Virus record (IMG/VR): IMGVR_UViG_3300006802_000346
Span: 1-30,254 of that record
Source of the DNA: a virus
Length of the DNA stretch: 30,254 bases
Direction: 5' to 3' (one strand)
Positions 527 through 13,657 of this stretch are shown piece by piece. The notes beneath the pieces are model-generated. The model did no database searches. It saw nothing but the letters and a program-made list of their open reading frames with translations, and was not told the origin of the DNA. The position numbers and the translations under genes were made by a program. The first letter of the stretch is position 1; each line of letters begins with the position of its first letter.

Positions 527-602
527 GCCTAATCCCCCTACACCTGAAGCTGTAGCTAAAGCACAGTTTGTTGACAAGACATACGTTTGGCAAGGTAAGT
601 GA
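480..602 (+). CDS. Small overlapping protein, 40 aa, unknown function
   Basis: An ATG at 480 opens a 40-codon frame that overlaps the last 47 bases of the helicase gene in a different frame and ends in TGA 600-602. Its stop overlaps the GTG start of the exonuclease gene (GTGA, 599-602). The product is basic and proline-rich (SKPNPPTPEAV) and ends in WQGK. It fills the only apparent gap (527-598) between two replication genes. The junction CAAGGTAAGTGA is identical to the one at 2478-2489, where another small basic gene ends in QGK and overlaps a GTG start, which supports real translation and coupling. No family is recognised. T7 also carries tiny genes between 4 and 5, but no homology is claimed. 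Confidence 0.6.
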   Translation: MKPNTKTNSIQRPISKPNPPTPEAVAKAQFVDKTYVWQGK

Positions 603-1117
603 ACCTAGTCTTCGACATCGAAACAGACGGGTTATACGATGATGTTACCTGTGTCCACTGTGTATGTATCCATGATCTCGATAGTAAAGAGACGTTTGTC
701 TTTAACGATCAAGGAGATACAGAACCGATTACTCGTGCTGTCACGATGCTTGAAGAGGCCGATCACATCATTGGCCATAACAGTATTGGTTACGATATTC
801 CTGTGCTTAAGCATCTTTACCCCTTTTTCACCCCTGGTGGTGTGGTATTGGATACTTTGGTGCTCTCTCGCTGTATTCATCCAGACCTCCTGGTAATTGA
901 CCAGAAGCGTAAGTGGAAAAACATGCCACTGCAGTTGTACGGTAGGCACTCGCTTGAAAGCTATGGCTACCGACTAGGAGAGTACAAGGGGTGCTTCGGG
1001 AAGACAGCAGACTGGAAACAATGGTCTCCAGAGATGCAGGACTACATGGTACAGGACGTAAACGTAACAACTAAACTATGGCACCATTTCCAGAAATACC
1101 TGACTGGATCACGTTAG
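599..1117 (+). CDS. 3'-5' proofreading exonuclease, separate half of a family A DNA polymerase
   Basis: This 172-aa protein is the DEDDy exonuclease domain that in T7 is the N-terminus of gp5. The three metal-binding motifs are present: Exo I DIETDG (D6, E8), Exo II HNSIGYDIPVL (D66) and Exo III DYMVQDV (Y149, D153). TLVLSRCIHPDL and HSLESYGYRLGEYKG also match T7 gp5. The start is GTG at 599, forced by the DIETD motif just downstream; an AAGG lies a few bases before it. The frame stops at TAG 1115-1117, exactly at the exonuclease/polymerase boundary. The polymerase domain follows as a separate frame overlapping by 40 bases. Presumably it proofreads in complex with the polymerase subunit; that association is inferred. 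Confidence 0.93.
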   Translation: MNLVFDIETDGLYDDVTCVHCVCIHDLDSKETFVFNDQGDTEPITRAVTMLEEADHIIGHNSIGYDIPVLKHLYPFFTPGGVVLDTLVLSRCIHPDLLVIDQKRKWKNMPLQLYGRHSLESYGYRLGEYKGCFGKTADWKQWSPEMQDYMVQDVNVTTKLWHHFQKYLTGSR

Positions 1118-2349
1118 AGCACAATGTTGCACAGATACTCACAGAACAGGAGTTGTATGGATGGTACTTTGATGAGCCTGCTGCACGGGAACTTGCACAA
1201 ACTCTCTACACCGAGCTTGATGGCCTTAATCGTGTATTACGAGAGCGGTATCCTTACGTCGCTGGATCGGAGTTTACTCCTAAGAGACCTAACAAGACAC
1301 TCGGATACATCGCAGGAGCTACTCTCACTAAGCTGAAGGAGTTCTCTCCAACCAGTCGTGATCACATTGCCTGGGTGATGGAGAACCTTCACGGTTGGAA
1401 GCCAGACAAGAAGACTCAGAATGGCAAGACAGCTATTGATGAGACAGTCCTCAAGGAGATCGGCACAGAGGAATCTCTGCAGTTCTTTCGATGCCTTGAG
1501 TTAACAAAACATCTAGGCATGTTGTCTGAAGGTAACAATGCCTGGCTCAAGCTTGTAAAGAACAATCGAATACATCACCACTGTTCAGTGGCTACTAACA
1601 CATCCCGATGTGCTCACCGTAATCCAAACCTAGCCCAGGTACCGAGTGACTCTGAATTTAGAAAGCTATTCCGCGCTACTCCTGGTTATGTCATGGTTGG
1701 CGCTGATCTCGCAGGTATTGAACTTAGACTCCTCGCTCACTATTTGGCTCGATACGATGGAGGACGTTACGGAGATATTCTTCTCCACGGTGACATTCAC
1801 CAGGAGAATGCCGACAAGATAGGCATTAGCAGGCGCCTAGTAAAGACTGTTACTTACGCCTTCCTCTATGGGGCAGGTGACCAAAAGATTGGACTTAGTT
1901 ATGACCCCCTCCTTACTCCATCCGCTGCAAAGACCAAAGGTGCTGAAATACGGCAAGCATACATGGATGCAATTCCTGGACTTGAGGAACTGGTTACGGC
2001 GGTTAAGCGTAAGGCCACCGAGTCTGGTGAGGTCCGTGCTATTGACGGTCGCCGCATTCCTTGTGATGGTGCTCACAAAGCCTTGAACTATCTCTTGCAG
2101 GGATCAGCAGCATGTGTAGCTAAGCAATGGATGTGGATCGCTCACGTCCACAACTATGTGCAAGGTCTAGAAGGTCACCAGCTTGCCTTCGTACATGATG
2201 AACTGCAGTACGAATGCACACCTGACATTGCTAATGATCTTAAGTTTCTCTTAGAGCTAGCAGCCACTATGGCTGGCGAAGCATATAACCTCCGAATCCC
2301 TATTGCTGCCGAAGGGAAGATCGGATCCACCTGGGCAGACGTGCACTAA
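1078..2349 (+). CDS. Family A DNA polymerase, polymerase domain (T7 gp5-like)
   Basis: This 423-aa protein is the thumb/palm/fingers part of a T7-type replicative polymerase. It begins with ITLEHNVAQIL, which aligns with the T7 gp5 segment just after the exonuclease domain. Motif A is GADLAGIELR (D210), motif B is KTVTYAFLYGAG (K256, Y260, Y264) and motif C is VHDE (D374). THRFPNLAQIP of T7 appears as AHRNPNLAQVP. Y260 occupies the position called 762 in E. coli Pol I. The stretch between LRER and SPTSRDHI is about 35 residues, against roughly 80 in T7, so most of the thioredoxin-binding insertion is missing. ATG 1078 is the only plausible start: the frame is closed by TAA at 1072-1074, and no clear Shine-Dalgarno precedes it. 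The upstream exonuclease gene is in another frame with no obvious slippery heptamer in the overlap. Confidence 0.95.
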   Translation: MAPFPEIPDWITLEHNVAQILTEQELYGWYFDEPAARELAQTLYTELDGLNRVLRERYPYVAGSEFTPKRPNKTLGYIAGATLTKLKEFSPTSRDHIAWVMENLHGWKPDKKTQNGKTAIDETVLKEIGTEESLQFFRCLELTKHLGMLSEGNNAWLKLVKNNRIHHHCSVATNTSRCAHRNPNLAQVPSDSEFRKLFRATPGYVMVGADLAGIELRLLAHYLARYDGGRYGDILLHGDIHQENADKIGISRRLVKTVTYAFLYGAGDQKIGLSYDPLLTPSAAKTKGAEIRQAYMDAIPGLEELVTAVKRKATESGEVRAIDGRRIPCDGAHKALNYLLQGSAACVAKQWMWIAHVHNYVQGLEGHQLAFVHDELQYECTPDIANDLKFLLELAATMAGEAYNLRIPIAAEGKIGSTWADVH

Positions 2350-9847: not shown

Positions 9848-10063
9848 ATGGCAAACATTGCAACAGGTCGGTATTCATCCCGACAAATGGAGTCTGGTCT
9901 AAGTGTACCAAAACACGATTACATCGGCATCACCAATGATGTCAACGGTAACCCCACCACTGTTGTGTACCGTGCTGGCGGAGCTAGTGGACAGATTGTG
10001 TCTACTGTTAACATGACCTATGATGGTAATGGTTACCTGACAAGTGTTACCCGTGTGTCGTAA
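9848..10063 (+). CDS. Small beta-rich hypothetical protein, 71 aa
   Basis: The product is rich in Gly, Thr, Ser, Asn and Val with alternating patterns expected of beta strands ([20 protein letters not shown], then [16 protein letters not shown]). The [12 protein letters not shown] ending is common in small beta-stranded phage proteins. Its last base is the first base of the collagen-like gene (TAATG overlap), indicating joint translation. A virion-associated role is inferred from context; no family is recognised. Confidence 0.7.
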
Positions 10064-10356
10064 TGTTCCGTCTTAACCCTATCAATGGGTGCTTCTCCTT
10101 TGCACCTGAGTATTCACCACCTGGTCCTCCTGGTGAACCTGGAGAACCTGGATATGATGGAGAAGACGGTCAAGATGGAGAGCCAGGCCCTATGGGTCCA
10201 CCTGGTCCTCAAGGAAAACAAGGAATCCCAGGTATTCAAGGAAGGCCAGGTCCTGCTGGTCCTATGGGACCTCCTGGTAGAGTGCAACATGTAGGTGATT
10301 CAGCACCTCCTCAAAAAGGGTGGGTATCTGGAGGCATTACTGTACAACATAACTAA
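10063..10356 (+). CDS. Collagen-like protein, 97 aa
   Basis: Residues 21-72 consist of 17 uninterrupted Gly-X-Y triplets ([18 protein letters not shown], ending GPM GPP), a collagen triple-helix sequence. It is flanked by a short N-terminal part ([18 protein letters not shown]) and a C-terminal part ([20 protein letters not shown]). Such repeats form trimeric rods and occur in phage fibres and head or tail appendages, so a trimeric virion fibre or linker is likely. Acidic triplets in the first half and basic ones later may set the register of the trimer. It starts by overlapping the preceding gene and ends two bases before the next one. No prolyl hydroxylase is seen; bacterial collagens are stable without it. 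Confidence 0.85.
10123..10278 (+). repeat. Collagen Gly-X-Y coding repeat
   Basis: About 17 nine-base units encode Gly-X-Y triplets with ggt/gga glycine codons and cct/cca prolines. The DNA copies are imperfect, so this is a protein-level repeat rather than a DNA element, though it could allow gain or loss of triplets by recombination. Confidence 0.85.
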
Positions 10357-12598: not shown

Positions 12599-13657
12599 AT
12601 GACTGCAATTGCAGTAGCACGCTCTCAAGACAACACTTGGGAGCGTTTTTGTAGCTGGGTAACCAGCACCAATAACCGTCTTTATGTTGGGTGGTTTGGG
12701 ACACTGATGATCCCATGCCTGTTGGCAGCCACCATTTGTTTTATTATTGCATTCATTGCGGCTCCCCCTGTCGATATTGATGGCATCCGTGAGCCCGTAT
12801 CTGGGAGTCTTCTCTATGGAAACAACATCATTTCGGGAGCCGTCGTTCCGAGCAGCAATGCCATCGGACTTCACCTCTACCCAATTTGGGAAGCTAATTC
12901 ACTTGATGAGTGGCTATACAATGGAGGTCCCTATCAACTCACGGTCTTCCATTTCCTCATTGGTATCTACGCTTACCTGGGACGAGAGTGGGAACTTAGC
13001 TATCGACTAGGGATGAGGCCCTGGATCTTTGTCGCATATTCAGCACCAGTGGCGGCTGCTACCGCTGTATTCCTTGTCTATCCCTTTGGTCAAGGAAGCT
13101 TCTCTGATGGTATGCCTTTGGGTATCTCGGGAACCTTCAACTTCATGCTGGTCTTCCAGGCTGAACATAACATCCTTATGCACCCCTTCCATATGCTTGG
13201 AGTCGCGGGTGTATTCGGTGGGGCTTTGTTTAGCGCGATGCACGGCAGCTTGGTTACGTCTAGTCTTGTACGTGAAACGACTGAAGAGATCTCTCAGAAC
13301 TACGGCTACAAGTTTGGCCAAGAAGAGGAGACGTATAACATCGTTGCCGCTCATGGCTATTTTGGACGTTTGATCTTCCAATATGCTAGCTTCAATAATT
13401 CCCGTAGTCTTCACTTCTTCCTTGCTGCTTGGCCTGTTGTTGGTATCTGGCTTACTAGTCTGGGCGTTTCGACCATGGCTTTTAATCTTAATGGGTTCAA
13501 TTTTAACCAAAGTATTATTGACTCTCAAGGTCAAGTAATCAATACTTGGGCTGATGTACTCAACCGAGCAGACCTTGGCTTCGAGGTAATGCACGAGCGT
13601 AATGCTCATAACTTCCCGCTTGATCTAGCGGCACATACAGCACCTGTTATTGGGTGA
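12599..13657 (+). CDS. psbA: Photosystem II D1 protein
   Basis: The 352-aa product is a complete D1 reaction-centre protein of photosystem II, with five transmembrane helices in the thylakoid. Key residues are all in place: Y161 (TyrZ), the Mn4Ca ligands D170, E189, H332, E333, D342 and A344, chlorophyll ligand H198, non-haem iron ligands H215 and H272, and QB-site S264. Position 130 is Glu (GREWELSY), the high-light D1 form, rather than Gln. The C-terminal pre-sequence after A344 is short (AHTAPVIG). Phage D1 replaces the fast-turning-over host protein and keeps photosynthetic energy flowing during infection. Only seven bases separate it from the rlpA-like gene, with no visible promoter, and a terminator follows, so it is probably the last gene of its transcript. 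Confidence 0.98.

Follow-up and report, generated by a model that had tools for sequence, protein, structure and literature searches.

Studies of marine cyanopodoviruses make wide use of the DNA polymerase gene as a marker. In clade B (MPP-B) of these phages a split arrangement of the gene is already known, being annotated in P-SSP7 and other members. Here we analyze such a locus in the virus record IMGVR_UViG_3300006802_000346, a stretch of 30,254 nucleotides whose full length we call the window. The window encodes the exonuclease and polymerase parts of a T7 gp5-type DNA polymerase in two overlapping open reading frames (ORFs), and comparison with its relatives leads us to consider it very probable that these are translated as two separately initiated polypeptides.

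The closest described systems share the overlap. ORF17A/17B of the Prochlorococcus phage P-SSP7 (AY939843.2) has the two ORFs, -1 register, 40-bp overlap and gene order of the window, but is 60-64% identical to it in amino acid sequence; its GenBank note considers that the DNA polymerase may be present as a split variant or that the event is programmed. ORFs 17A/17B of the Synechococcus phage S-TIP37 (MH540083) overlap as in the window but are 61-65% identical to it, and that record notes a split variant or frameshift. Two coding sequences with this overlap are likewise annotated for S-SRP01, S-SBP1 and two uncultured fosmids. A 2012 paper described the overlap as "a putative frameshift or ... 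a split variant", and PMC3350473 leaves the choice between the two undecided; we found no paper deciding it in the literature searched.

More distant systems differ in gene structure. The clade A cyanopodoviruses (P60, Syn5, S-CBP2, S-CBP42, S-TIP28) have homologous exonuclease and polymerase domains, with polymerases 44-49% identical to that of the window, but carry one continuous polymerase gene, often with a thioredoxin-like gene upstream. T7 gp5 shares the domain folds and catalytic residues but is a single chain with a thioredoxin-binding insertion; the window protein has no such insertion, and its two ORFs depart from the single polypeptide chain that characterizes the T7 gp5 type. The OM43 phages MEP401 and MEP402 also have a family A polymerase in two ORFs (PMC10580990), but there the polymerase domain itself is broken, and a small ORF, possibly an intron, separates the pieces.

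Domain identity and gene anatomy

The initial annotation, made from the sequence of the window, described a gp5 homolog broken at the exonuclease/polymerase boundary with the catalytic motifs of both halves intact. Pfam identified RNase_H_2 (1.2e-07) in the exonuclease ORF and DNA_pol_A (1.9e-38) in the polymerase ORF, and the PHROG match of the exonuclease ORF is 'DNA polymerase exonuclease subunit'. In phmmer searches of the PDB, the exonuclease ORF aligned to T7 polymerase residues 2-181 and the polymerase ORF to residues 317-704; T7 residues ~269 to 316, the thioredoxin-binding insertion, were unmatched between window polymerase residues 69 and 74. AlphaFold models of the exonuclease (predicted local distance difference test, pLDDT, 92) and the polymerase (pLDDT 88) both had T7 DNA polymerase as their best match, with TMq of about 0.81 and 0.87, respectively. 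Each half is thus confidently predicted to fold by itself into the corresponding part of T7 gp5, and the sequence searches and models concur in identifying the ORFs as the two parts of a T7 gp5-type enzyme.

The exonuclease model terminates with a single helix (144-168) that takes in much of the tail encoded by the overlap, and the polymerase model opens with eight coil residues followed by a first helix (9-27); this puts the break in the linker that joins the two domains. In alignments of 38 sequences, exonuclease residues D6, E8, D66, Y149 and D153 and polymerase residues D210, R252, K256, Y260, Y264, H373 and D374 were invariant, and polymerase E375 was conserved in at least 90%. Together with the T7 comparison, these alignments show the catalytic residues of both halves to be complete in the window.

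The frames are also as first annotated: the exonuclease stops at 1117, and the polymerase frame, open from 1075, has its ATG at 1078, giving a 40-base overlap with the polymerase ORF in the -1 register relative to the exonuclease ORF (Table 1). Predicted masses of 20.0 kDa for the exonuclease and 47.4 kDa for the polymerase match the initial estimates of about 20 and 47 kDa. The codon at 1075-1077 is the sole sense codon between the TAA closing the polymerase frame and the ATG; because this TAA blocks the frame, no start earlier than ATG 1078 is possible, and TTG 1153, which comes next, falls within the polymerase sequence.

Split and fused relatives

The initial annotation had proposed comparing this junction across cyanopodovirus genomes. 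With the window counted, five viral-contig scans and 22 annotated phage regions yielded about 420 loci, of which some duplicate a contig already in the set. The polymerase was split from the exonuclease in 331 loci, the window among them, always with the polymerase in the -1 register, and fused to it in 74. Two loci were scored outside these classes: P-GSP1, which was judged on a partial exonuclease match, has a junction in the -1 register, and L411, a candidate for a further split that we rejected, is an otherwise fused gene interrupted by a single in-frame TGA at 421-423, in the exonuclease motif III region.

We placed split and fused forms on a maximum likelihood tree of 82 polymerases, built with the first 16 residues left out. 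The two forms were separated by one change (support 99), with P60, Syn5, S-CBP2, S-CBP42 and S-TIP28 on the fused side and P-SSP7, S-TIP37, S-CBP1, 9515-10a and the window on the split side. Since there is one change, and the midpoint root falls among the fused rows, the split would most simply have arisen once from a fused gene. The window polymerase clusters with those of P-SSP7, S-TIP37 and S-CBP1, apart from P60 and Syn5, a placement that assigns the window phage to clade B (MPP-B). The records of NATL2A-133, P-GSP1, S-RIP1 and S05-C849 (L090, L093, L098 and L099) showed polymerase matches in at least two frames, which are probably sequencing errors.

Conservation of the polymerase start codon

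A polymerase with a start of its own would be expected to retain that codon even where the exonuclease frame makes no demand on it. Every split junction has ATG or TTG as the polymerase start codon. Measured from the last base of the exonuclease stop codon, it is set back by 40 bases in 68 of 83 divergent junction clusters and by 34-52 in the others. The start codon begins on the third base of an exonuclease codon for a conserved Leu, a position that was A (64) or T (16) in the 80 aligned Leu rows and never C or G; C or G made up 21-57% at eight further conserved Leu columns earlier in the exonuclease gene. The remaining TG forms the first two bases of the next exonuclease codon, which is TGG, TGC or TGT in all split junctions. 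The encoded residue is Trp or Cys, two dissimilar amino acids, and the tree counts four switches between the two. In fused relatives this exonuclease position is mostly Ala, Tyr or Val, and only 6/74 have TGN. Because the start-codon rows are related, we assign no P-value and use the fused clade and the other Leu columns as controls. Judged against these, the polymerase start codon is kept by selection in the split clade.

We found no Shine-Dalgarno-like GGAG, GAGG or AGGA at -18 to -4 of the polymerase start in any of the 83 junctions, and on this basis rejected Shine-Dalgarno-led initiation of the polymerase.

One locus, L013, which lies on the same 44-kb contig as L406, has an insert between the two genes. 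The exonuclease stop codon has its last base at 2207, and the polymerase has an ATG of its own at 2489, with an HNH-like endonuclease reading frame, apparently spread over two frames, at 2105-2523 between exonuclease and polymerase. At the old polymerase start position, an ATG now opens a short Cys-rich reading frame. As its sequence reads, frameshift fusion of exonuclease and polymerase would not be possible in L013. Because it is one contig, we take it as support for separate initiation of the polymerase, short of proof.

Alternatives to separate initiation

A programmed -1 ribosomal frameshift, in which some ribosomes slip within the overlap to make a fused exonuclease-polymerase besides or instead of a separate polymerase, is the strongest alternative, and we regard it as unlikely. 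It is left open by the GenBank notes and PMC3350473, and in the window a shift at TTT-C would produce a join close to that of the fused P60 gene. Strict X XXY YYZ heptamers are nevertheless absent, both from the overlap of the window, as first annotated, and from all 83 divergent overlaps. RNAalifold, applied to 34 junctions, predicted no pair of a consensus RNA structure, pseudoknots not being tested. Moreover, the conserved polymerase start codon would serve no purpose in a frameshifted product, and the insert in L013 excludes such a product there.

Three observations weigh against separate initiation as the whole account. Single-tRNA slip sites occur in 75/83 overlaps, and because of these weak sites low-level frameshifting may take place at the overlap; the sites change place from junction to junction, which speaks against a programmed signal. 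The -1 register of all split relatives would also fit a frameshift, although it is accounted for by a single origin combined with two coding frames. Lastly, L013 is a single metagenome contig, and the relative register of its two genes is unchanged by the insert. Taken together, the start codon, the tree, the missing heptamers and L013 favor two polypeptides over a frameshift, the order of likelihood that the initial annotation had proposed.

A mobile intron or intein that interrupts one gene and is excised is a very improbable explanation of the split. The HNH-like ORF at this junction in L013 would suit such an element, but the two genes overlap in the window and in nearly all relatives, leaving nothing there to remove, and no Rfam intron family matched the window, L013 or L406; for the window this explanation is refuted. 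We likewise reject gene decay or a sequencing error affecting a single phage, whose probability is negligible: breaks inside the polymerase do occur in some relatives' records, but 331 loci from many projects share the identical junction and relative frame, with invariant catalytic residues, and decay had been discounted from the outset.

Neighboring genes and feature coordinates

Of the 62 fused polymerase genes with enough flank, 41 have a thioredoxin-like gene upstream, versus 0/286 split genes; PMC9381782 reports thioredoxin in most clade A phages and its absence from clade B. A functional link between the absence of this gene and the polymerase split is speculation. In the window, a small ORF of about 40 codons (479-602) shares bases with both the end of the helicase gene and the exonuclease GTG, and a similar peptide occurs in 237 loci. 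A small basic ORF of 45 amino acids (2352-2489), with relatives in 97 loci, lies between the polymerase and a gp6-like exonuclease. Further away are a short collagen-like (Gly-Pro-rich) ORF (10063-10356) and an intact psbA-like photosystem II D1 gene (12599-13657). The window phage infects ocean cyanobacteria.

Table 1. Features of the exonuclease-polymerase junction in the window.
Feature	Position	Strand	Description
Exonuclease ORF	599..1117	+	172 amino acids; start GTG 599, stop TAG 1115-1117; DnaQ-like 3'-5' exonuclease part of T7 gp5-type polymerase
Polymerase ORF	1078..2349	+	423 amino acids; start ATG 1078, stop TAA 2347-2349; family A polymerase part
Overlap of exonuclease and polymerase ORFs	1078..1117	+	40 bp, coding in both frames
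Polymerase start codon ATG	1078..1080	+	ATG or TTG in all split relatives
TAA closing polymerase frame upstream	1072..1074	+	One sense codon before start

Discussion

We propose that the marine cyanopodoviruses of clade B (MPP-B) descend from an ancestor in which a T7 gp5-type replicative polymerase was split, on a single occasion, at the exonuclease/polymerase boundary. In the window, ribosomes translating the 20-kDa proofreading exonuclease would stop at 1117, and the 47-kDa polymerase would have its own start at ATG 1078, where the 40-base overlap with the exonuclease ORF begins. Because no Shine-Dalgarno-like sequence precedes the polymerase start, its initiation is probably coupled to translation of the exonuclease.

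In bacterial Pol III, DnaQ proofreads for DnaE as a separate subunit. Given that the active sites are intact and the pairing of the two genes is constant, the phage exonuclease and polymerase may form a similar non-covalent partnership, and by binding each other the two proteins could make up a stable two-subunit replicase.

Published notes leave undecided whether clade B phages make one fused protein or two. Our comparative evidence points to two, derived from one old split common to all split loci found, and raises the question of how proofreading works in a T7-type polymerase whose exonuclease is a protein of its own. We suggest, tentatively, that in an abundant lineage of ocean phages the single-chain T7-type replicase could have been replaced by a dissociable pair of a stand-alone proofreading subunit and a family A polymerase lacking the exonuclease. 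Proofreading could then be tuned or supplied in trans, and the missing upstream thioredoxin-like gene may reflect a different processivity system.
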